A DNA stretch of 64,000 nt, from positions 62,001 to 126,000 of the forward strand of contig NZ_JAKCFB010000012.1 in NCBI RefSeq assembly GCF_024198235.1, given 5' to 3'. The stretch is from Myxococcus dinghuensis. GTDB taxonomy: Bacteria; Myxococcota; Myxococcia; Myxococcales; Myxococcaceae. The notes below the pieces were generated by a model that was not told the DNA's origin, did no database searches, and saw only the letters and a program-made list of their open reading frames with translations. This document shows, piece after piece, positions 2,750 through 13,423 of the stretch; position 1 is the stretch's first letter; each line of letters opens with the position of its first letter. A program made the translations under genes and the position numbers.

Positions 2750-4195
2750 TCACCCCGTGCGCGACGAGACGTCTCCGGAGACGGCCTTCTCCTCCACGCC
2801 GAAGATGGCGTGCGAGGCGAGGACCTGCCAGTGGGCATGCTGCTCGAGCCCCTCGATGTCGCGCGCCGACAGCCCCGTCCACCCCGTGGCGACCTCGTTG
2901 AGCTCCTGGACGCGCGTGCGTCCCCCCATGTCGTCATAGACGCGCCTCGCGGCGCCCAGGTCGACGCCGTGCGTGCGCAGGAACACCATGCGCTCCTCGT
3001 AGCCGCGGGGGATGGAGCCACCCGTGCCTCCCTCGGGCCTGGCGCTCCGCAGCTCCACGAGCCGCCAGAGCGGCAGGCCGGTGACGAAGTCCTCCAGGCA
3101 CTGGTTGACGCGGATGAACCACAGGCGACGTCGGGTGCGCCGGGGCTCCGGTTGGAGGTAGCGCTGGATGCCCTCGCCCGCAGCCGGGTGGCTGCCCGCG
3201 GACAGCCGCTGCCCCAGCTCGTCCTTGAGCCAGCTCGTCTCGAACTCCTGCACGGTCGCCGAGCGCATCCAGCGGTTCTGCTTGCTGTTCATGATGAGCA
3301 GGAGCTGGGTGAGCACGCCGCCGCTCACCAGGGGCACCGCGAGGTCCTTGAGGACGTTGAGGAAGCCCTTCTTCCACGCCTCCTCCTTCGTCCCCGCGTC
3401 GCTGACGATGAGGTCCCAGGTGCCGAAGCGGTGGCTCATGAGGAGGGTCTGGACGCCCAGGTTCTCCAGGACGCCTCCATCCGTCAGGGTGAGCCGGTCG
3501 TGGTTCTCCAGCTCCTCGAAGAACAGCGCGTTCTTCAGGTCCTTCTTCCTCGACAGCGTCATCGGCGGCAGGCCGACGGGGAAGGCCGCGGACGCGGCCA
3601 CCGCGCGCGACAGGCGGAAGTCGGGCAGGGCGATGGGCAGGTTGTTGCGGGCGTCGTAGGGGCGGGGAGGGTCCTCCCGGGGACGGACCCTCGGCGCGGA
3701 GAAGCCGTCCTTGCTGAACTTGGCCACCTGCCCGTTGTTCACGAGCGTGGTGTTGACGCACAGCGCGGGGTGGTCCGGCAGGTCGGCGAGGCGGGTGCTG
3801 CGCTGCTTCTTCCCGGCCTCGCGGCGCTGGAAGACGAGCGCGTCGAACAGGTCCGCCATCAAGTCGGAGCGGTTGTACCAGGGCAGCAGCATCTTGAGCC
3901 CGCGCAGGCTCGCCAGCGCGCGCAGCACGAAGCCCTTCTGCAGTTGCGCGCCGAACTCGGAGAGGAAGTCCACGTCCGCCGTCCCGTTCGCGCGCGCCGC
4001 CATCCACGCACCGCCGAAGAGCGAGCCCCCGGACACCGTGGAGACGACGTCGACGCGAGGCACCAACTGCAACTCGATGAGGCCACGCAGGATGCCGCGG
4101 TGGAAGGCCGCGGCCCGGCTGCCGCCTCCCGAGAGCGCCAATCCCAGACGTCGAGGTGGAGGAGAATCGGAGAGGTCCAGCGGTTCCATGGACAT
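2750..4195 (-). CDS. Patatin-like phospholipase, last gene of the caspase/MBL operon
   Basis: A 481-residue patatin-family lipid acyl hydrolase. The oxyanion segment LSGGGSRAAAFHRG is at residues 21-34, the nucleophile Ser55 sits in STVSGGS (a variant of GxSxG lacking the first Gly), the SAAFP block is at 202-206, and the catalytic Asp239 is in the DGG motif of TDGGVLENLG. It has no signal peptide, so it acts in the cytoplasm, probably on inner membrane lipids. The start at 4195 has AGGAG six bases upstream. It follows the metallo-beta-lactamase gene by 49 bases on the same strand. Patatins act as membrane-degrading effectors in several bacterial immune systems (for example CBASS CapV). That role here is an inference from the neighbours; housekeeping lipase activity is the alternative. 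Confidence 0.85.
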   Translation of the reverse strand: MSMEPLDLSDSPPPRRLGLALSGGGSRAAAFHRGILRGLIELQLVPRVDVVSTVSGGSLFGGAWMAARANGTADVDFLSEFGAQLQKGFVLRALASLRGLKMLLPWYNRSDLMADLFDALVFQRREAGKKQRSTRLADLPDHPALCVNTTLVNNGQVAKFSKDGFSAPRVRPREDPPRPYDARNNLPIALPDFRLSRAVAASAAFPVGLPPMTLSRKKDLKNALFFEELENHDRLTLTDGGVLENLGVQTLLMSHRFGTWDLIVSDAGTKEEAWKKGFLNVLKDLAVPLVSGGVLTQLLLIMNSKQNRWMRSATVQEFETSWLKDELGQRLSAGSHPAAGEGIQRYLQPEPRRTRRRLWFIRVNQCLEDFVTGLPLWRLVELRSARPEGGTGGSIPRGYEERMVFLRTHGVDLGAARRVYDDMGGRTRVQELNEVATGWTGLSARDIEGLEQHAHWQVLASHAIFGVEEKAVSGDVSSRTG

Positions 4196-4244
4196 ATCGG
4201 CTCCTGGAGAGCGGATGGGGGTGTGGGGGCGCCGCGCGGCGCCG

Positions 4245-5300
4245 TCAGGACAGGTCCAGCGTGATTCCGCCCGCGTCGAGGGGCGGGTACCGCGTCGTGT
4301 AGCGCCACTCGCCGCGCAGCGCGTCGCTGTCCCAGGCCTCGGTGTGCGCGCTGCGGTAGTTGAACCACAGCTCCGCGGGTTGCGTGTTCGCGACGACGCG
4401 GGCGACGGCCTCGCGGTCCGGGTGGCGGTAGCGGCTGCCGCTGGTGGAGAACAGGTAGCGGGGCGTGTCCACCAGCGCGAGCAGCTCCCGGCTCACGTTC
4501 TTCCGGCTGCCGTGGTGCGGGAGCTTGAAGGCATCCACCTTCGCGCGCCCCCCCGCGAGCCGGGCGATGGAGGCGCACAGGACGCTCGGGTGGGCATCCG
4601 CGCCGAAGAGCACGGAGCGGCCGCCGTGCTCGGCGATGAACGCGATGGAGCTGCCATTCGCCTCCGCGTCGTCCTCCTTGAACCGGCCGGAGAGCAGCGT
4701 GGCGACGTCGATGCCGCCCATCACCTCGAGGCCCTCGGGCGCGGGGGGATGTGGCTCCACCTCCGGGACCAGGCCCGCCTCCTCGCACTTCTTCGCCCAG
4801 ACGCCCCGGAGCTTCTTCAGCCGCTCTCGCGTGGGCGACAGCAGCGTGAGCCGCATCCCGCCCGGAAGCTCGCGCGTGGGCAGGGGGCCCGTGTCCGGGA
4901 CGACCACCGCGCGTCGGCCGAAGTGCTGGTTCCACGCCGGCACGGTCCACAGGTGCCGCGTGAGGACCTCGCCTTGGAGCGGGCCGAAGTCCTCCAGGTC
5001 GCTCTCCTCCAGGTGCTTGTAGCCGTTGAACCAGATGTCGTCGAACGAGAGCCCCTCGGGTGGGGACTTGAACAGCGACAGCGCCCCCTCGATGTGGTCC
5101 TGGTCGATGTGCGTGACGACGAGGAGGTCGAACCGCCGCTGCTCGACGGGCAGCGCCTCGATGAGGGGCTTCAGGTGCTTCCACGTACCGGCGATGCCGC
5201 CGTCGATGAGCACGCGATGCGGGCGCTCCGGGCGGCCGTACTCGATGAGGATGCAGTCACCTTGCTGCGCGGGGAGCAGGTGGACGCGGTAGAGCGACAT
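4245..5300 (-). CDS. ComEC/Rec2-like metallo-beta-lactamase fold hydrolase
   Basis: A 351-residue cytoplasmic protein of the metallo-beta-lactamase fold, closest in motif pattern to the C-terminal hydrolase domain of ComEC. It shows QQGDCILIE at residues 12-20, the metal motif THIDQDH (His64, Asp66, Asp68, His69), a GADAHPSVL segment with a metal Asp, and the LPHHGSRKN motif typical of ComEC-type enzymes. No membrane segments, so it is a free-standing nuclease or phosphodiesterase candidate. Only two bases separate it from the upstream gene's stop, and GGGAGGAC precedes the ATG, so translation is probably coupled. Free MBL hydrolases of this kind pair with a protease in the AVAST type I defence system; here the protease is a caspase. 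Confidence 0.85.
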   Translation of the reverse strand: MSLYRVHLLPAQQGDCILIEYGRPERPHRVLIDGGIAGTWKHLKPLIEALPVEQRRFDLLVVTHIDQDHIEGALSLFKSPPEGLSFDDIWFNGYKHLEESDLEDFGPLQGEVLTRHLWTVPAWNQHFGRRAVVVPDTGPLPTRELPGGMRLTLLSPTRERLKKLRGVWAKKCEEAGLVPEVEPHPPAPEGLEVMGGIDVATLLSGRFKEDDAEANGSSIAFIAEHGGRSVLFGADAHPSVLCASIARLAGGRAKVDAFKLPHHGSRKNVSRELLALVDTPRYLFSTSGSRYRHPDREAVARVVANTQPAELWFNYRSAHTEAWDSDALRGEWRYTTRYPPLDAGGITLDLS

Positions 5301-5302
5301 GG

Positions 5303-6745
5303 TCAGTCCTCCCGGGGGATGCGCAGCGTGGTGAAGGGCTCCCGAGGGTCCACCCACGTCGCCCACTGCCGGACGGTCCGCAGGGCGTGCCGGTAGGGCT
5401 CGCGCTGGTCCTGGGAGAGCGCGCCCGGGTCGAAGTGGAGGAGCCCGTCGAGCAGCATCCGCAGGCTGACGGAGAAGTAGGGCACGCCTCGCTGGAAGGC
5501 CTGGAGGAAGCACGCGAGCGCCTCGGCGGCCTCCTCGTCGGTGTCGGTGCTCTCGTCGGTGAGTCGCAGCCAGCCCTCGAGGATGGCCGTGTCCGGGATG
5601 TTGGGTGTCCACGTGGTGAGCAGATGCACCCAGCTCCGCCACTCGACCTGGACCTTGGGCAGGTGGGACTTGATGAGCTCGAGGATGTGGGGCGCGTCCT
5701 TGTCCAGGAAGCGGAGCCACTCGTACCACTTCGCCTCGTGCTCGGAGTTCCCCGACAACATCGTGCGGGCCAGGACCAGGGCGCTGATGGCGGCGGCGAA
5801 CGGGTCGTGCTCGTCGCGCTCGAGTCGCGAGAACGGCACGGCGGTCCGCAGGGTGTGCGCCGCCTTCTCGAGCTGACCGGAGGTGAGGTAGCCGAGAATG
5901 GGACCGAAGATGGGGTCCGCCACCATGGCGGACACCGTCTGGGTCGACAGGTTCACCACGAACTCGATGCGCGCGTCTGCGGACGACCCGGGCAGCCCCT
6001 CCCAACGCGCCACGGGAATCAGGACGAGCTGCTGGTCCCACCGGATGACGAGGGTGCCGGTCGCCGGGAGCGGACCAGGAGGGCGGGGCAGCGCATAGGT
6101 CACGAGCGTGCCGTCGTGGCTCAGGAAGGGAAGCCGGTCGGGGAAGGGCTGGTCCTGGAGGTCGCGTTCACCGGCCAGCGCCGCCGTGGTGGGCGTGGGG
6201 TCGGGCGCGCGGGGGTTCCGCCAGAGGACGGAGACCACGGGGAGCGGCGCCTCCTCTCGAATCCCGAGCGCGCCGAAGAACGGGGGCTCCTCGTACGGTC
6301 GTTCGGTTTCGTAACCATGCCCTTCTCTCGGTGGCGGTGTGCTCGAGGGGGGGCGGGAGGGAACCCGGGTCTTGGTTCCCCCCGCCACGCCGGTGAATGA
6401 CAGGAGCGGAGAGAACGGCGGCGGTGGTGCGGGGCGCAGGCGCTCCGCGGGCATGAGCAGGTGCTGTCGCGAGAGCTTCGCGTTCGGCGCGCGCAGGGGC
6501 TTGAGGCTGACGTCGACGGGGGGCGCCCCCTCGCGGAGGTCGGCGGGCCGTCGCAGCCGCTCGCCCGAGGGGAGGCTCGCTTCGATCAAGTACTGTCCTG
6601 GCTCCAGTTGGACGCGCGCGACGTCGCCCACGAGGACCAGCACCTCCTGTCCCTCGCCGTCGGCCAGGTTGCGGACCGTCGTGGAGATGGCGGTGCCCCG
6701 AGCGTGCTCTTCTCCGTCGATGTGGATGCGAAGCTCTACGGGCAT
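5303..6745 (-). CDS. Unrecognised 480-residue caspase-operon protein
   Basis: I do not recognise the family. Residues 1-85 look like a beta-sandwich of PEGA type (VRNLADGE, then LEPGQYLIEASLPSGE). Residues 105-150 are a low-complexity Pro/Ser/Arg linker. Residues 160-270 seem to be beta-rich (PVVSVLWRNP, GTLVIRWDQQLVLIPVARW), and from about residue 275 to the end the chain looks alpha-helical, with many Leu/Trp heptad-like stretches (GYLTSGQLEKAAHTLR, WYEWLRFLDKD, ALACFLQAFQRG). There is no signal peptide or membrane segment. Its start overlaps the caspase gene's end by 10 bases and its stop lies 2 bases before the MBL gene, so it is made in fixed proportion to both. A scaffold, sensor or caspase substrate would fit; none is shown. 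Confidence 0.75.
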   Translation of the reverse strand: MPVELRIHIDGEEHARGTAISTTVRNLADGEGQEVLVLVGDVARVQLEPGQYLIEASLPSGERLRRPADLREGAPPVDVSLKPLRAPNAKLSRQHLLMPAERLRPAPPPPFSPLLSFTGVAGGTKTRVPSRPPSSTPPPREGHGYETERPYEEPPFFGALGIREEAPLPVVSVLWRNPRAPDPTPTTAALAGERDLQDQPFPDRLPFLSHDGTLVTYALPRPPGPLPATGTLVIRWDQQLVLIPVARWEGLPGSSADARIEFVVNLSTQTVSAMVADPIFGPILGYLTSGQLEKAAHTLRTAVPFSRLERDEHDPFAAAISALVLARTMLSGNSEHEAKWYEWLRFLDKDAPHILELIKSHLPKVQVEWRSWVHLLTTWTPNIPDTAILEGWLRLTDESTDTDEEAAEALACFLQAFQRGVPYFSVSLRMLLDGLLHFDPGALSQDQREPYRHALRTVRQWATWVDPREPFTTLRIPRED

Positions 6746-7869
6746 GGCAGCACCACCTCCGTGTGGGGCGGAAAGACCAGCTCGGTGTGGACGTGCCTGG
6801 GGGTGTCGGGGGGCGCCCCCTCGGGCGCCGCGATGAATTCATACGTGCCGTAGGGCAGCACCAGGTTCCACGGCGGCGAGGAGGCCGCGTGCTCGTGCGG
6901 CGTCGCGCCTCCGACGACGCGGAGGACCGCGTTGGTCAGGTCGACCTGGGTGACGCAGCTCACCGTCACCGGAATCTCGGGAGGGGAGGGGAGGCGGTGG
7001 AACGGGAAGTCGACGACGTTGTTGGCGTTGCAGTTCTGCGTGGCGCCGGCGGCCTCCGCCTCGCGCGCGAGCAGGTCATCCAGCGCCGTCAGGAGCGTGG
7101 TGGGGCGTATCTCCCAGGCGTTCCCCTTGCGCATGGCCCCCGCGCCCTTCATGGCCTTGAGCAGGGCGCTCGTGTACAGGCTGGGCTGGTCGGCGCGGCC
7201 GAACGCCTGGGTCCCGAGCATGGTCGAGTAGAACACCGGCGCGCGCCGGGCGGGCGTCGAGTGCTTGCGCGAGGGCGTGAGGACGGACTCCCCGAAGGTG
7301 TCGATCTCGAACAGCGTCCGCGAGGCCACCCGACACGCGTCGACGAAGTAGCACTGCGTGCGGGCCGGGCACGGGTCCATGCCCAGGTAGAACCGGTCGA
7401 AGTCGAGCGCGTGCGCGAACGCCGCGTGGGGCACGTCCCCGAAGTCCTCGAGCAGGAGCGTGGTCTGCAGCCCCGCGGCGAGCCCATGCCCGCAGAAGTA
7501 GAAGACGGCGTGATTGTCGGGAGAGGTGCTCAGCGCCGCGTACCAGCGCAGGACGGCCGCCTTGAAGTTGTCGAAGGTGGCGCGTTCCACGACCTGGGCC
7601 TGGGCGCCGGCCACGGCGGGTTGGTAGGTCAGCGGCGCGCCACCGGAGACGAGCACGTCGATGGAGCGCAGGGGATGCGTCGGCGGCTGGTAGGTGCTGG
7701 TGAGCCAGTCCGCGAAGGCCGTGGCCGACACGGGCGCGGAGGTCAACTGGCCCATGCCCCCGTGGTCCGGGAAGGGCGTGCCGCCCCCTCCCAGCAGGTG
7801 CGGATAGCGGCCAACGCCGACCACGAGCGCATGGGTCCCCGGTCCCGTGCTGAAGTTCCAGACGGTCAT
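6736..7869 (-). CDS. Caspase-like (C14-type) cysteine protease, first gene of the operon
   Basis: A 377-residue protein with a caspase-fold domain in residues 1-260. It begins HALVVGVGRYPHL (first strand), has catalytic His128 in FYFCGHGLAAG and catalytic Cys179 in YFVDACRVASR, followed by the PVFYSTMLGTQAF strand and ALLKAMKG helix usual for the p10-like part. The C-terminal 80 residues are a beta-sandwich with LPYGTYEFIA, resembling the PEGA-like start of the next protein. It has no signal peptide. The ATG at 7869 is the first codon where homology to the fold begins; the ribosome site (AGGGAAC) is modest. It heads a minus-strand operon with three likely partners. Bacterial caspases cleave specific partner proteins, often as part of suicide immunity; metacaspase-like Arg/Lys preference cannot be judged. 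Confidence 0.87.
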   Translation of the reverse strand: MTVWNFSTGPGTHALVVGVGRYPHLLGGGGTPFPDHGGMGQLTSAPVSATAFADWLTSTYQPPTHPLRSIDVLVSGGAPLTYQPAVAGAQAQVVERATFDNFKAAVLRWYAALSTSPDNHAVFYFCGHGLAAGLQTTLLLEDFGDVPHAAFAHALDFDRFYLGMDPCPARTQCYFVDACRVASRTLFEIDTFGESVLTPSRKHSTPARRAPVFYSTMLGTQAFGRADQPSLYTSALLKAMKGAGAMRKGNAWEIRPTTLLTALDDLLAREAEAAGATQNCNANNVVDFPFHRLPSPPEIPVTVSCVTQVDLTNAVLRVVGGATPHEHAASSPPWNLVLPYGTYEFIAAPEGAPPDTPRHVHTELVFPPHTEVVLPCP

Positions 7870-8138
7870 CTCGTTCCCTGCCCCACGTTGCGAGGAGACA
7901 CGCCGACACCAAAACCTAACACGCCCCGGCCCACGAATGCGGAGGTGCCCGAGCGCCGTGAGTCTCGTTGACCCCAGATGGTCAGCAATTGACGGATGCG
8001 GGCTGGCGTTGGAGCCGCGAGGGAGCTTGCCTTCCGCTTCGTGTTCAGCGACTCCCCCACTGGGGCTGCGGGCTGGCCGTCGTGCGATGCCCCGAGATGC
8101 TCGGGTGGGAGTACTGTCGAGCGGTAGTGGAGGCCTGA
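7870..8138. promoter_or_regulatory. Promoter region of the caspase operon
   Basis: The 269 bases between the divergent caspase and small membrane protein genes carry no gene. An inverted repeat TGACC-N6-GGTCA lies at 7969-7984, about 100 bases upstream of the caspase start, and could bind a dimeric regulator. No regulator gene accompanies the operon. Confidence 0.3.
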
Positions 8139-8408
8139 ATGCACACGCTGGCGCGACTCTCCCAGATTCTAATCGCCATCGTGGGCGCATGGGCCGGAGT
8201 CATCGTGTTCCTCTTCGTGATGGAGTTCGTGACCCCGGCACTGTTCCGATGGCTCGACCGCAGCTTCATTCCACTCGAAGGGGGCGGGGAGTTTCCATTC
8301 CTCGCGCTGGCGTGGCTCGGCGCGGCAGCGGCGGGCGCCACCCTCATGACGATTGTCTGGCGAAGGCGCGTCATCGGCCGCTACCTCGGCACTCCGGGAG
8401 CGGAGTGA
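8139..8408 (+). CDS. Small two-helix membrane protein
   Basis: An 89-residue protein with two predicted membrane helices, about residues 8-32 (QILIAIVGAWAGVIVFLFVM) and 52-71 (ALAWLGAAAAGATLMTIVW), joined by an acidic loop, with a basic cytoplasmic tail (RRRVIGRYLG). GGAGG lies 6 bases before the ATG. I do not recognise the family. It is transcribed away from the caspase operon and sits alone. Confidence 0.6.
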   Translation: MHTLARLSQILIAIVGAWAGVIVFLFVMEFVTPALFRWLDRSFIPLEGGGEFPFLALAWLGAAAAGATLMTIVWRRRVIGRYLGTPGAE

Positions 8409-8490
8409 CATCGGGCTCGTTGGTCCCCAGCGGCTTGCGTGACGTCTTCGAGCCGGGACATCCCGCACTGCAGTCTCAGGACGAGCCTCC

Positions 8491-9420
8491 TCAGCTCCCG
8501 GCGATGCGCTTGGGAGCCAGCCCCTCCAGCACGGCCGCCAGACGGAGGGCGGGGGCCTCTACCTGCCGCCGGTAGGCGAGCCGCCACGTGCGCACCAGGG
8601 GCCCCGAACCCAGTCGTCTGGTGACGAGTGTCCCATCTCGCAGGTGGGGGCCGATGATCCACTCCGACAGCATCCCGATGCCCAGCCCCGCGCGGGCCAT
8701 GTCGAGGATGGCCTCCGTCAAGGGGAGCCGCTCGACGCGCAGCGTGGGCCGCTCACGGCCGAAGACGCGTGACACGAACCAGACGTCCTCCCTGGGCGGC
8801 GTGGGGGAGGTCAGCAGGGGATGGGCCTGGAGGTCCGCCCGCGTGAGGGTCTTCTTCCGCGCGAGCGGATGACCGGCGGCGAGGACGAAGACGATTTCGT
8901 CGGTGAAGAGGGTCCGCGTCTCGAGGCGCTCGCGCGGGACGGTCGACGTGGTGACCAGCGCCATGTCGATGTCGCCCGCCTCCAGCGCGGGGATGGGGTC
9001 TCGCGTGTGCTCCACCGCCAGTCGGACCTCCAGCCCGGGGAGGCTCTGGCGCAGCGAGAGCAGCGTCGACGGCAGCCAGTGGTAGGCCGTGTAGCAACCG
9101 CAGACGAGGCGCAGCCGGGTGGGGGCCGGCTCCGGTGCGCGGACCCCGCGCTCCAGGTCGCCCAGCTCCACCAGCAACCGTGAGGCGCCCTCGATGAGCT
9201 GCCGGCCCGCGGCGGTGGGCACGAGCCCCCGAGGTGTCCGGTCGAAGAGGCGTGTCGCCAGCTTCTCCTCCGCGCCCAGCAGGGCCCGGCTCACCGCGGG
9301 TTGGGTGAGGTGGAGTCGCGCCGCCGCCTTGGCCGTGGTCCCCGCGGTGGCGAGCGCGAGCACGACGCGCAGGTCCCTCACGTCGAGACTGGAGGTGGGA
9401 GGAAGGGGAATGTCCGCCAT
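8491..9420 (-). CDS. LysR-family transcriptional regulator
   Basis: A 309-residue LysR-type regulator: a winged HTH in residues 13-72 (LRVVLALATAGTTAKAAARLHLTQPAVSRALLGAEEKL, here in two parts around TTAKAAARLHLT), followed by the periplasmic-binding-protein-like inducer domain from about residue 95 to 300 (RLRLVCGCYTAYHWLP, LALVTT-type hinge, GIGMLSEW). It is divergent from a glutathione S-transferase gene with 102 bases between the starts, the classic LysR arrangement, so it most likely controls that gene and itself. The inducer is unknown. Confidence 0.92.
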   Translation of the reverse strand: MADIPLPPTSSLDVRDLRVVLALATAGTTAKAAARLHLTQPAVSRALLGAEEKLATRLFDRTPRGLVPTAAGRQLIEGASRLLVELGDLERGVRAPEPAPTRLRLVCGCYTAYHWLPSTLLSLRQSLPGLEVRLAVEHTRDPIPALEAGDIDMALVTTSTVPRERLETRTLFTDEIVFVLAAGHPLARKKTLTRADLQAHPLLTSPTPPREDVWFVSRVFGRERPTLRVERLPLTEAILDMARAGLGIGMLSEWIIGPHLRDGTLVTRRLGSGPLVRTWRLAYRRQVEAPALRLAAVLEGLAPKRIAGS

Positions 9421-9440
9421 GCATCGAGCCTATGCGAACG

Positions 9441-9455
9441 ATGCGTTGGACGCAT
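9441..9455. promoter_or_regulatory. LysR-type operator (T-N11-A palindrome)
   Basis: ATGCG-TTGGA-CGCAT, a perfect 5-base inverted repeat with T at 9442 and A at 9454, fits the T-N11-A consensus of LysR boxes. It lies 21 bases upstream of the LysR start and 68 bases upstream of the GST start, where it can serve both divergent promoters. Confidence 0.6.
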
Positions 9456-9522
9456 CAGGGCGCGGAGGGGAGAGTCCACGCGTTCCCACGCCGGGAACGC
9501 AGGGCCTGCCCGGAGAGACACC

Positions 9523-10161
9523 ATGAAGCTCTATTTCTCGCCGCTCGCCACCTCGATGGCGACCCGCATCTCCTTGTACGAAGCGGGAGTCCCCGCGACG
9601 TTCGTGGAGGTGGATACGCGGGCGCGGCGCACGCACGACGGAGGCGACTACACGCCCATCCACCCGCTGGGCATGGTGCCGACGCTGCTCACCGATGGTG
9701 GAGAGCTCCTGTTGGAGAACATCGCCATCCTCCTGCACGTCGCCGAGTCACACCCGGAGGCGGGCCTCATCCCGGTGGACCCCGTCGAGCGCTCCCGGCT
9801 CCACCGCTGGCTGGCCTTCGTCGGCACGGAGATCCACAAGGCCATCTTCTTCGAGTGGTTCGACCGGAGCGCTCCCGACGCCGTCAAGGCCCATGCCGTG
9901 GAGCGGTGTGGGCCGCGCTTCGCTTTCCTGGAGCAGCACCTGGCGGAGCGCGAGTTCCTGCTCGACCGCTTCAGCGTCGCGGATGCCTATCTGGTGACGT
10001 TGCTGAACACCTGCCCGGCGACGCCCATCAAGCTGTCGCAGTGGCCCGTGCTCAAGGCGTACTACGCGCGTCTGCGGGAGCGTCCGAGCGTCGCGAAGGC
10101 CATCTCCGAGGAGCTTCCGCTCTACCTGGCCGCGCAGGCCCGTCTCCAGGCCGCCAGGTGA
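9523..10161 (+). CDS. Glutathione S-transferase family protein
   Basis: A 212-residue GST. The N-terminal thioredoxin-like domain (residues 1-80) has the MKLYFSPLATSMATRISL start with a Ser/Thr-rich catalytic region, the GMVPTLLTDGGELLLENIAI segment with the cis-Pro and the Glu-Asn glutathione-binding turn, followed by the all-helical C-terminal domain with FSVADAYLVTLL at about 150-162 (N-capping box). It conjugates glutathione or reduces peroxides in the cytoplasm. A GGAGA site precedes the ATG at 9523. It is divergent from the LysR gene and likely regulated by it. Confidence 0.9.
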   Translation: MKLYFSPLATSMATRISLYEAGVPATFVEVDTRARRTHDGGDYTPIHPLGMVPTLLTDGGELLLENIAILLHVAESHPEAGLIPVDPVERSRLHRWLAFVGTEIHKAIFFEWFDRSAPDAVKAHAVERCGPRFAFLEQHLAEREFLLDRFSVADAYLVTLLNTCPATPIKLSQWPVLKAYYARLRERPSVAKAISEELPLYLAAQARLQAAR

Positions 10162-10176
10162 ACCACCGTGACGGCC

Positions 10177-10752
10177 TCAGGTCGTCGTCCACGGGAAGAC
10201 CCGGGCGAGCCGTGCCCGGGTCTCGCGAGCCTGCTGTCGTGCGCACCCGTGAGGAAGGAGCTCGCTGCCGGCGCGGGCCAGGGCCTCGGTGCGGTCCGCG
10301 GCCTCGATGAGCGCGCCTTCCTCGAAGCGCAGCTCGTGGGCCTCCGCGTAGGGCCAGAGCGGGGCGGGGTGCTCGAAGTCGAGGACGTGACGATGGAGGT
10401 AGCCCACGCCGATGCGCATCGCGCCCGTGAACGGGACGGGCCAGTGGAGATCGTCGTACTGGACCTGCAACCCGAAGGATTCGACGAGGCGGGGATGGAC
10501 GCCGAGGAGCGGCCTCGCCCTGCCGTACCGGAGCCTGAGGTGCGTGGCCCTGTCTCCAATCAGCAGCGTCTCCAGGAACAGCCTGCCTTCAGTGATGGAG
10601 AAGTCGCGCACGAAGCCACGGTGGCCGCTGGTCGCGAACGGCGCGGGCTTCAGGCCATGCTCGACGGGGTCGAACATCCCGGAGCCCACCACGGTCGTGA
10701 CGACGAACTGACGTTCCAGGAAGCGAATGCCGTCGAGAATCGGTGTCGTCAT
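10177..10752 (-). CDS. Hypothetical protein, 191 residues
   Basis: I do not recognise the family. The protein is soluble, with no signal peptide or membrane helix, and looks beta-rich in the first 140 residues (FVVTTVVGSGMFDP, LFLETLLIGDRATHLRLRYG, GAMRIGVGYLHRHVLDF) with a helical end rich in Glu and Arg. A strong GAGGAGGG ribosome site lies about 8 bases before the ATG at 10752. Its stop is only 15 bases from the convergent GST stop. The codon pattern and start site support a real gene; no function can be given. Confidence 0.65.
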   Translation of the reverse strand: MTTPILDGIRFLERQFVVTTVVGSGMFDPVEHGLKPAPFATSGHRGFVRDFSITEGRLFLETLLIGDRATHLRLRYGRARPLLGVHPRLVESFGLQVQYDDLHWPVPFTGAMRIGVGYLHRHVLDFEHPAPLWPYAEAHELRFEEGALIEAADRTEALARAGSELLPHGCARQQARETRARLARVFPWTTT

Positions 10753-10906
10753 GGGGCGCCCTCCTCGAGAAGTGCCCTGACGGACGAGGTCTGTTCCGGC
10801 GCCTGACCCGGTCGTTGCTCGGGGCGCGTCAGGCTTTGACAGACGCGTTTCCGGGGATTAGTGAGTTTCCCAGCGCGACACGGGCCGGGCGCGCTGGAGC
10901 GTGAGC

Positions 10907-13423
10907 ATGACGTCTCGTCCTGTCTTCGTCGACTCCCGCCGAGGCACTCGGGCATCCCCCGTCCTCCTGGCATCGCTGGTCTGTCTGATGAGCGGGTGCC
11001 CCGGGACGGAGTCCCCGCCTCCGGTCAACGATTCGCGTCCTCCCGGTGTCGCACGGCTGGAGCTGGATCGCGCCCGCCTCGAACCGGGAGCGTCCATCCG
11101 GTTCTCCTGCACGGCCAGTGACCCCGAAGGCGACGCGGTGACGTACGTCTTCGATTGGGGCGCTGGAGGGACGCTCGCGTCGTCGGAGCAGGTGGCGAGC
11201 GGCGTGTCCGCGCAGGTGGAGGTGTCCATCCCCCACGAGGGGAACTACCAGGCCCGGTGCCGCGCGGTCGACGTCCACGGGGGCCTGGGAGGTTGGTCCC
11301 CCGCGCTCGACTTCGCCGTGGTGGACTCCAGGCCCGAGGGGACCGCCACGCTGACGTTGGAGGTGGTGGGGCAGGGGACGCTGTCGAGCCTGGTCGGCGG
11401 ACTCGACTGCCCGGGCACGTGCGCGACCCGGCTCGCCACGGGCGCGATCGTCGTGCTGGAGGCCACGCCCGCGCCGGGGTGGCGCTACCTGGGGCTCTCC
11501 GCGTGTGAAGGCACGTCCCGTCGCTGCGAGCTGAGGCTGGAGGGCGACCGGGTCGTCACCGCGCGCTTCGCGCCGGAGGTCGACACGGTGCTGGAGTGGC
11601 AGCGCACCGGCGCGACCCGTCCCGGCGTCCCGACGTGGAGCCCGGATGGCGAGAGCCTGGTCGTCCTGGACGGGGGCGTCTCCGGAGGTGTGCTCCGCAT
11701 CTGGGACGTGGCGAGCGGGCGGGTGAAGCGGGTGATTCCTCCCATCGAGGAGGCGCGCTTCCTGTCCGCCGCGTGGAGTCCCACGCGCAACAGGTTGGCG
11801 GCGGGCCTGACGGACGGGACGCTCGTCCTCCTGGACCCGTCGACGGGCACCGTCCTGCGCCAGTGGGCCCTCCCGGAGGGCGTGGTGCGCGCGCTGGCGT
11901 GGAGCCCGGAGGGGACGCGGCTCGCGACCGCGACGGACGTGGGGACGGAGATCCGGATCTGGGAGGCCGACACGGGGACGCTCCTGGGCGAGCCGGTGGT
12001 GGCCGTGGGCCAGGTGCGGCGCCTCGTCTGGAGCCCGGATGGCGCCCGCCTGGGGCTCGAGGCGGGACCGGTCTTCGACCCCTGGGTGGAGGTCCACGCG
12101 CTCGGGCGTCCGAAGGTGGAGTCCCTGGTGTCGCACGCGGCGGGCTTCACGTGGGCACCGGATGGCTCGCGCTTCGCGGCGGGGCTCATGGGCGAGGTCT
12201 CCATCCACGTCGCCGCCGACGCGCGCGTGGAGTCTCGACACCAGGGGAGCTGGGGCTTCGCCACGCTCCTGGACTGGAGCCAGGACGGTCGCTGGCTCGC
12301 GGTGGGGGATGCCTCGCGGAGGTTGTTCGTGCTGGACGCCGCCACCGGCGAGGCGCGAGTGGACGCGAGCCAGGCGCCACCGACGGGCTCCTCCATGGGC
12401 TTCGACGCCGTCCGCTTCCACCCCACGCGGCGCGAGCTCGTCGTCGTGGACGACTTCCCCAACCAGCTCGACGTGCTCTCGCTGGATGTCGAGGCCCGGA
12501 CGTATCTGCGCCGCGAGCTGCTCGCGCACACGACCTTCGTGGAGGCCACCGCCTGGAGCCCCACCGGCGCGCTGCTCGCCTCGAGCGGCTACGAGGGCGT
12601 CGTCCAACTGTGGAGCCCCGAGGGCGACGCCGTGCGGACGCTCTCCGCGCACGGGGGCAAGCGCGTGCGCGCGTTGGACTGGAGCCGGGACGGGGCGCTC
12701 CTGGTGACGGGGGGCGATGACGGCATCGTGAGGATCTGGCGCGCGGCGGAGGGCACGCTCGCGTACCTGCCCTATCGGCACGACGCGGGGACGTCCGCGG
12801 CCACGCAGGAGGTCTACCGCGTGGCGTTGAGCGGTGATGCGCGGTTGATGGCGAGCGTGGGGGGCTCCTCGCTGCTGGCGAACCAACGCGGGGTCATCAA
12901 GGTCTGGAGCGTGGTCGGCAACACGGAGCTGTTCCGCTTCCCGGATGGGACGCAGGAGGTCCTCGCGCTGGGATGGACGCCCGACGGGCGCTACCTCGTC
13001 GTGGTCTACGCGGGCGTGAGCTGGAGCATCTGGGACAGCCAGACCCGCCGCATCGACACGGTGGACCCCGGCGTGGACGTCGTGTCGCTCGCCGCCGCGT
13101 TGAGCCCGGACGGGACGCAGGTGGCGGTGGGCGGACGGCCAGGGCTGTCCATCCGCGAAATCGCCACGGGGCGGCTCGTGGCCGAGTCGTCCGCCGCCAT
13201 CGTGCCGTCCGCGCTCTCCTGGAGCGCGGATGGGCGACGCCTGGGCGGAGGCGGGTGGGGAGGGCAGGTCTTCGTCTGGGACACGACGACGCCCGACCTC
13301 TCCCGCCAGGTCATCGGCTTCCACGACGAATCCCTGTCGGGGGTTTCCTGGAGCCCGACGGGCGGCCTGCTCGCGACGGCGGGACGGGACACGGCGCTGC
13401 GGGTGTGGCGCGTGGAACACTGA
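10907..13423 (+). CDS. Exported lipoprotein with a 14-blade WD40-type propeller
   Basis: An 838-residue lipoprotein: signal peptide with lipobox LMSGC, an Ig/PKD-like domain at about 35-120 (FSCTASDPEGDAVTYVFDW, then YQARCRAVDVHG), an InlB-B-like/divergent repeat with paired cysteines at about 125-200 (GLDCPGTC, GWRYLGLSACEG), and then a long WD40-type region to the end. Fourteen blades can be counted by their W-S-P/D-G turns (WSPDGE through WSPTGG), which would make two seven-bladed propellers. I chose the ATG at 10907 because GGAG lies 7 bases upstream; the GTG at 10901 is too close to it. It is probably a surface scaffold for protein binding. Partner unknown. Confidence 0.88.
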   Translation: MTSRPVFVDSRRGTRASPVLLASLVCLMSGCPGTESPPPVNDSRPPGVARLELDRARLEPGASIRFSCTASDPEGDAVTYVFDWGAGGTLASSEQVASGVSAQVEVSIPHEGNYQARCRAVDVHGGLGGWSPALDFAVVDSRPEGTATLTLEVVGQGTLSSLVGGLDCPGTCATRLATGAIVVLEATPAPGWRYLGLSACEGTSRRCELRLEGDRVVTARFAPEVDTVLEWQRTGATRPGVPTWSPDGESLVVLDGGVSGGVLRIWDVASGRVKRVIPPIEEARFLSAAWSPTRNRLAAGLTDGTLVLLDPSTGTVLRQWALPEGVVRALAWSPEGTRLATATDVGTEIRIWEADTGTLLGEPVVAVGQVRRLVWSPDGARLGLEAGPVFDPWVEVHALGRPKVESLVSHAAGFTWAPDGSRFAAGLMGEVSIHVAADARVESRHQGSWGFATLLDWSQDGRWLAVGDASRRLFVLDAATGEARVDASQAPPTGSSMGFDAVRFHPTRRELVVVDDFPNQLDVLSLDVEARTYLRRELLAHTTFVEATAWSPTGALLASSGYEGVVQLWSPEGDAVRTLSAHGGKRVRALDWSRDGALLVTGGDDGIVRIWRAAEGTLAYLPYRHDAGTSAATQEVYRVALSGDARLMASVGGSSLLANQRGVIKVWSVVGNTELFRFPDGTQEVLALGWTPDGRYLVVVYAGVSWSIWDSQTRRIDTVDPGVDVVSLAAALSPDGTQVAVGGRPGLSIREIATGRLVAESSAAIVPSALSWSADGRRLGGGGWGGQVFVWDTTTPDLSRQVIGFHDESLSGVSWSPTGGLLATAGRDTALRVWRVEH

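Follow-up and report, generated by a model that had tools for sequence, protein, structure and literature searches.

P0001, the protein encoded at 5303-6745 of the 64,000-nucleotide stretch of DNA analysed here (the window), is in our reading a regulatory subunit of CanB type in a Canu-like defence operon, working with a caspase rather than being cut by it, and we give this a probability of roughly 0.7. The Canu-like reading is drawn from the type of caspase, the gene order, the metallo-beta-lactamase (MBL) family, the Gly residues of the MBL insertions and the predicted parts of the middle protein. The role of CanB is an open point in Canu, and the present analysis supplies a sequence family and a predicted domain layout for the middle protein. 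It also supplies cases in which this protein accompanies the caspase at loci lacking the nuclease, together with a putative cleavage motif that is found twice in the nuclease.

The caspase, P0001 and MBL genes

P0001 is read from the minus strand, from an ATG at 6745 to a TGA at 5303, giving 480 residues as the earlier note had stated, and its homologues in other genomes and on plasmids indicate that it is a gene and not a chance open reading frame. It is the second of four genes on the same strand, following caspase P0002 and preceding MBL P0003 and patatin P0004. The P0001 start and the caspase stop overlap by 10 bases, the MBL starts 2 bases past the P0001 stop and the patatin starts 49 bases past the MBL stop. 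The features are as follows.

2750..4195, minus strand: patatin-like phospholipase P0004, 481 aa (Pfam Patatin PF01734, 1.5e-20)
4245..5300, minus strand: CanC-like MBL P0003, pro-nuclease candidate, ATG at 5300 (Pfam and PADLOC); P0003 as printed starts at 5315, five residues ahead of this ATG
4716..4727, minus strand: MBL loop 2 motif EVMG, residues 197-200 of P0003 as printed (E-x-[FLM]-G)
4983..4994, minus strand: MBL loop 1 motif EDFG, residues 108-111 of P0003 as printed (E-x-[FLM]-G)
5303..6745, minus strand: P0001, CanB-like caspase partner, 480 aa by translation; middle gene in 44/44 caspase-linked MBL loci
5354..5911, minus strand: P0001 TPR-like helical part, residues 279-464 (AF2 helices, TPR rows in fold searches)
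5921..6232, minus strand: P0001 second beta region, residues 172-275 (AF2 strands)
6233..6436, minus strand: P0001 Pro-rich linker, residues 104-171 (hypervariable, with predicted disorder from 111 on)
6491..6745, minus strand: P0001 N-terminal transthyretin/CnaB-like sandwich, residues 1-85 (AF2, Foldseek)
6736..7869, minus strand: CanA-like caspase P0002, 377 aa; start picked by alignment, frame open to 8190
6739..6990, minus strand: caspase C-terminal beta tail, residues 294-377 (AF2 strands and profile similarity to the P0001 N-domain)
7486-7488 and 7333-7335, minus strand: caspase P0002 dyad, His128 and Cys179 respectively

Canu (for caspase-nuclease) is a recently described anti-phage system, represented by CanABC from Klebsiella aerogenes (PMC12799240). 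According to that report, CanA is a MALT1-like caspase that ends in an Ig-like fold, and CanB, whose role is unclear, forms a soluble complex and co-purifies with CanA. CanC is described there as a gated MBL pro-nuclease with two insertions that carry a conserved Gly, CanAB turns it into a potent nuclease in vitro, CanABC protects against T4, and Ig-like and TPR domains are listed for canu loci (PMC12799240). Within the collection of papers searched by text for CanABC or canu and for CanB, nothing beyond this paper was returned. The window shares with Canu a MALT1-like caspase, a middle protein with predicted Ig-like and TPR-like parts, and a downstream MBL that has Gly-bearing insertions and is related to the Avs1a and Lamassu MBLs; it differs in the patatin that follows as a fourth gene and in the long Pro-rich linker of P0001. 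By its position and predicted domains P0001 is a putative counterpart of KaeCanB.

The same report bears on the idea that P0001 acts chiefly as an inhibitor or chaperone, holding the caspase in a soluble and silent state until the two dissociate. CanC was the only one of the three Kae proteins to be obtained by itself (PMC12799240), CanA being soluble with CanB, and the overlap of the two genes here suggests matched synthesis. However, CanAB activates CanC in vitro, so the complex itself is competent, and we regard this explanation as unlikely.

The caspase assignment was examined in an alignment of P0002 with 26 of 44 caspases, the others being omitted mostly for overlong open reading frame starts. 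P0002 matches Pfam Peptidase_C14 (1.9e-8), the 27 aligned caspases show no variation in the GHG motif or at D, C and R in DxCR, and the His128, Cys179 dyad is intact. Its model was best matched by the MALT1 paracaspase 3uo8_C (Z 23.1, rmsd 2.8, 218 aligned) and next by metacaspase 9 (Z 21.1). The EACC1 caspases of bacteria (NCBIfam NF047832; Kaur et al. 2021, PMC8195603) likewise belong to predicted conflict systems; P0002 matches them weakly (8.7e-6), scoring 25.4 bits against a cut-off of 140. P0003 matches Pfam Lactamase_B (8.3e-9) and the PADLOC profiles LmuA (1.6e-69), Avs1a (1.4e-44) and RTasMBL (2e-39), and by these sequence matches it is close to the anti-phage defence MBLs. The trypsin-activated MBLs (HamM of Hachiman, Avs1a of AVAST and LmuA of Lamassu) belong to the same MBL family as P0003, but their activator is a trypsin-like domain fused to a sensor, whereas here the putative activator is a separate caspase with P0001.

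To describe how the genes travel together, an MBL alignment was run against one genome per species and the best 80 of 164 relatives were taken, with P0001 and the caspase detected by separate profiles. A P0001 homologue was present in 44 of these 80 MBL loci and a caspase in the same 44, none of the 80 having only one of the two. The order and strand caspase-P0001-MBL held in 44/44 caspase-linked loci, which by record title come from Acidobacteria, Dyadobacter, Aquimarina, Streptomyces (13), Mycobacterium, Pseudomonas and others. In 39/44 loci P0001 could start at a codon that shares 4 bases with the end of the caspase gene, a count of codons present and not of codons used, given that the start picker favoured this overlap. 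Support for P0001 and the caspase acting together, as the earlier note had supposed, comes from their joint presence in those loci, the overlapping genes, a Bosea protein that fuses a caspase with the P0001 family and the published co-purification of KaeCanA with KaeCanB.

The patatin was rejected as a caspase-specific partner, with phmmer matches to P0004 in 7/44 caspase-linked loci versus 6/36 others and thus no enrichment. It is a possible second effector.

In the other 36 census loci neither a caspase nor P0001 was found with the profiles. Ten upstream proteins from these loci gave one CHAT, one Mrr_N and eight without a Pfam match. One locus (L066) carries a large CHAT-domain protein at 5221-8013, upstream of its non-caspase MBL, and in five others (L051, L053, L063, L078 and L095) proteins of 925-1006 aa with no Pfam match precede the MBL. 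These loci possibly contain MBLs activated by a CHAT protease.

Predicted parts of P0001 and the caspase tail

As a single sequence, P0001 matched nothing in Pfam, PADLOC or NCBIfam (E up to 1) or among PDB sequences (E up to 10), and a 36-row family profile reached only E 0.057 (FimD) as its best PDB match. That profile was built from P0001 and 35 of 44 homologues on genome contigs; L058, L060, L073, L100, L104, L108, L111, L113 and L114 were omitted, L060 for being split by an insertion and the others as redundant by eye. A Pfam scan of the 36 sequences returned FANCE in 2/36 (best 2.5e-5) and other single weak matches.

AF2 run on these 36 sequences predicts residues 1-85 as a seven-strand sandwich with a mean pLDDT of about 96. 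A Foldseek search of the P0001 model against PDB folds gave no row with E <= 0.001; the best rows for the sandwich were 6hif_Y at 3.1e-3 and CnaB2 at 5.5e-3, and VIA returned transthyretin/CnaB-like rows at Z 9.4 to 8.0. It had been suggested that this region is a PEGA-like sandwich. The fold type was borne out, as PEGA, CarboxypepD_reg and CnaB transthyretin-like domains are of the same type, but the PEGA name is loose: PF08308 did not match P0001 at E up to 1 and matched 1/36 family sequences at E 0.028. CarboxypepD_reg matched 2/36 family sequences (best E 0.041), and the family profile also matched the CarboxypepD_reg domain of a TonB receptor. In relation to these known domains the sequence matches are marginal, and the P0001 domain sits in a predicted defence protein.

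Beyond the sandwich, confidence falls below pLDDT 50 at 111-136, 138-171 and 181-200, with values of 39-45 across 111-170, and the linker is therefore predicted to be disordered from residue 111, as had been proposed. Between linker and helices lies a second beta region that the earlier description did not include, with AF2 strands at 172-176, 207-210, 214-219, 230-236, 239-245, 260-265 and 270-275; fold-search rows hardly cover this region (172-275). Helices span 280-464, where the best TPR row (Z 9.4, rmsd 3.9, 137 aligned) is middling for helical repeats. This TPR-like part is the most conserved part of P0001 relative to its homologues in two other genomes, G011 (85% identity) and G024 (51%).

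RAMA is a predicted DNA-modification reader. In two P0001 homologues (L065 and L083) about 100 C-terminal residues are weakly RAMA-like, below the Pfam cut-off. A C-terminal RAMA in the Aquimarina homologues is no more than a lead, since two of them score 21.7 and 13.6 bits where the cut-off is 35.2, and a third has no match.

The earlier note had claimed that a beta-sandwich is common to the P0001 N-terminus, where LEPGQYLIEASLPSGE lies within the first 85 residues, and the caspase tail, where LPYGTYEFIAAPEGAP lies within the last 80 residues of P0002. Fold-search rows for the caspase model cover residues 7-294 only, and for the tail AF2 (27 sequences) predicts six strands in 298-374, at 298-305, 314-320, 334-339, 341-349, 359-365 and 370-374. 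The predicted strand order of the two segments agrees for six of the seven strands when compared by eye rather than by superposition. A profile-profile comparison of P0001 1-88 with caspase 294-377 scored 28.1 (probability 75.6%), compared with at most 12.8 (1.2%) for 200 column-shuffled tails and 8.8 for the reversed tail. The signal was also local: of 20 windows along P0001 those starting at 1, 21 and 41 matched the tail (65-77%) and the other 17 gave <=0.6%, and of 14 caspase windows 13 gave <=0.2% against the P0001 N-domain and one, overlapping the tail, 5.2%.

The similarity occupies only 33 columns around L-x-x-G-x-Y. It was not found by single-profile HMMER, where the best E was about 0.5 in either direction, and a full-length profile comparison of P0001 and the caspase ranked the same place first with a probability of only 3.8%. 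From the models, the sandwich and the tail probably have the same fold, in keeping with the claim, and the short similarity could reflect a common fold type. Against a specific relation stand the weak ordinary profile searches and the commonness of the fold (CnaB2, transthyretin-like); a common origin is a possibility. The sandwich may serve as a docking surface between P0001 and the caspase.

Candidate caspase sites in the linker and the MBL

It had been proposed that the caspase cuts the Pro/Arg/Ser linker of P0001 and that the freed helical domain acts as effector or signal. The predicted disorder would make the linker accessible, and the caspase and P0001 genes overlap. The linker is, however, the least conserved part of the protein. 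Compared with G011 it shows 50% identity and 27 inserted residues, where the other parts of P0001 show 72-85%, and compared with G024 it shows 28% identity with 32/68 residues gapped, where the other parts show 35-51%. Across the 36 sequences, the segment aligned to P0001 88-205 is 33 to 121 residues long and contains E-x-[FLM]-G in 3/36 sequences only, P0001 being among those that lack it. In addition, the reported caspase substrate in Canu is the MBL. We therefore reject the linker as a caspase site, find no support for release of the helical part and consider the linker-cleavage model highly improbable; the best explanation of the linker is a spacer or tether rather than a caspase substrate.

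The likely caspase substrate is instead the MBL, at both gating loops, because the motif occurs in both loops and is absent from P0001, and because the MBL is Canu's reported substrate; this assignment is made from sequence and by analogy. E-x-[FLM]-G occurs at loop 1 in 42/44 caspase-linked MBLs (not in L088 or L096) versus 5/36 others, and at loop 2 in 40/44 (not in L073, L083, L088 or L096) versus 3/36 others. The loop 1 Glu is present in 44/44 caspase-linked MBLs and the loop 2 Glu in 41/44, with Asp in the other 3; by alignment column, the conserved Gly is G111 in 43/44 and G200 in 24/44. The motif was chosen after inspecting this same alignment, and what it marks may be a clade of MBLs and not a protease. 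Relatedness is not taken into account in the Fisher values calculated in this analysis (1.4e-23; 1.1e-14 and 1.2e-14), and 13/44 loci are from Streptomyces by record title. At the two motif places a Leu-Gly pair is seen in many of the MBLs that are not caspase-linked.

In Plesiomonas HamM, EPIG aligns with the P0003 EDFG at loop 1, and HQI, without a Glu, stands at loop 2. The published cuts in Pseudomonas HamM fall after Ile, and by this analogy a Canu cut would lie between F/L/M and G; the Canu paper points to Gly for the cut (PMC12799240). Elsewhere in the operon, the patatin has one ENLG at 244, beside DGG, which we take to be the catalytic Asp motif, and this ENLG was not read as a loop because it adjoins DGG. 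The caspase itself has one EDFG at 141, which was set aside as a cleavage site because relatives keep DFG or DYG there without the Glu.

Under the CanB-type reading, and by analogy with Canu, P0001 would bind the caspase, probably via the sandwich, in the way that KaeCanB binds KaeCanA, and its TPR-like part might sense an infection signal or present the substrate. Upon a trigger the caspase would cut both MBL gating loops at E-x-[FLM]-G, and the MBL so released would act as a DNase, halting phage growth because the cell dies or is arrested. The patatin encoded downstream may contribute damage to the membrane.

Spread and variants of the caspase-P0001 pair

P0001 was matched in at least 3/61 genomes (its own, which is counted, G011 and G024), a lower bound given that G010 was missed in this search and found by a six-row profile. 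That profile matched 7/195 genomes of the phylum, or 5/195 after removal of G144, where the open reading frame encodes a receptor of TonB type that carries a CarboxypepD_reg domain, and of G158, where the match lies only at the C-end of a 467-aa open reading frame. The same four genes, patatin included, occur in G011, and G024 has the caspase, the P0001 homologue and the MBL followed by a TPR-CHAT protein. Caspase-P0001 genes are also carried on plasmids of rhizobia, Agrobacterium, Streptomyces, Caballeronia and Bosea. Phage records yielded no P0001 match, and viral contigs yielded 3 MBL relatives at 23-28% identity.

In six caspase-P0001 loci (L020, L021 and L028-L031) the stretch read contains no MBL, which argues that P0001 is not dedicated to the nuclease. 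Among these MBL-free loci, L021 has the P0001 family fused to a subtilisin, L028 encodes at 5356-10722 a 1788-aa protein in which the P0001 family is joined to trypsin-like peptidase and PLD-like domains, and in L020 a phosphorylase-STAND-TPR protein follows. The L028 fusion adjoins a caspase gene and an M12 peptidase gene. In L032 (Bosea), which has an MBL, the P0001 family is fused to a caspase.

Such loci bear on whether P0001 is mainly a substrate-presenting adaptor, whose TPR-like part or sandwich brings the MBL or other effectors to the caspase while sensing takes place elsewhere. The MBL-free fusions to subtilisin and trypsin-PLD would put enzymes beside the caspase, but nothing points to binding of the MBL, and members of the P0001 family also occur at loci in which no MBL was found. 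We hold this to be possible, at well under even odds. A somewhat more tentative proposal is that the caspase-P0001 pair is a free-standing, exchangeable immune protease module and more than a nuclease activator, in which one caspase specific for E-x-[FLM]-G loops is coupled through the same sandwich-TPR adaptor to varied executors (MBL DNase, subtilisin, trypsin-PLD and STAND-TPR proteins), here to a DNase and a patatin phospholipase together. If true, this would be the bacterial equivalent of a single initiator caspase serving several executioners.

Two plasmid loci outside the census look like decayed copies. L027 has a 142-aa P0001-like fragment (5962-6390) and an MBL with no caspase detected, and L038 has caspase fragments (4827-5865) beside an IS21 element and no P0001. 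In L069 and L074 the gene immediately before the caspase encodes an S8 peptidase; this subtilisin-like gene (3180-5591 and 3161-5578, respectively) overlaps the caspase gene start and is preceded by a 396-431 aa open reading frame.

E. coli DNA searched for Canu with a Pseudomonas locus gave no match, 2/369 gammaproteobacterial genomes searched for Canu were positive with the centre included, and no Klebsiella record was among the matches listed. A search for the LysR and sigma-factor neighbours in 27 genomes, the own genome included, gave no clean empty site; outside G000 and G011, both neighbours were present in G002, G003, G005, G010 and G012, far apart or on different contigs. Elsewhere in the window and outside the operon, 10901-13423 encodes an 840-aa protein with a lipoprotein-like start and, by eye, WD40-like repeats.
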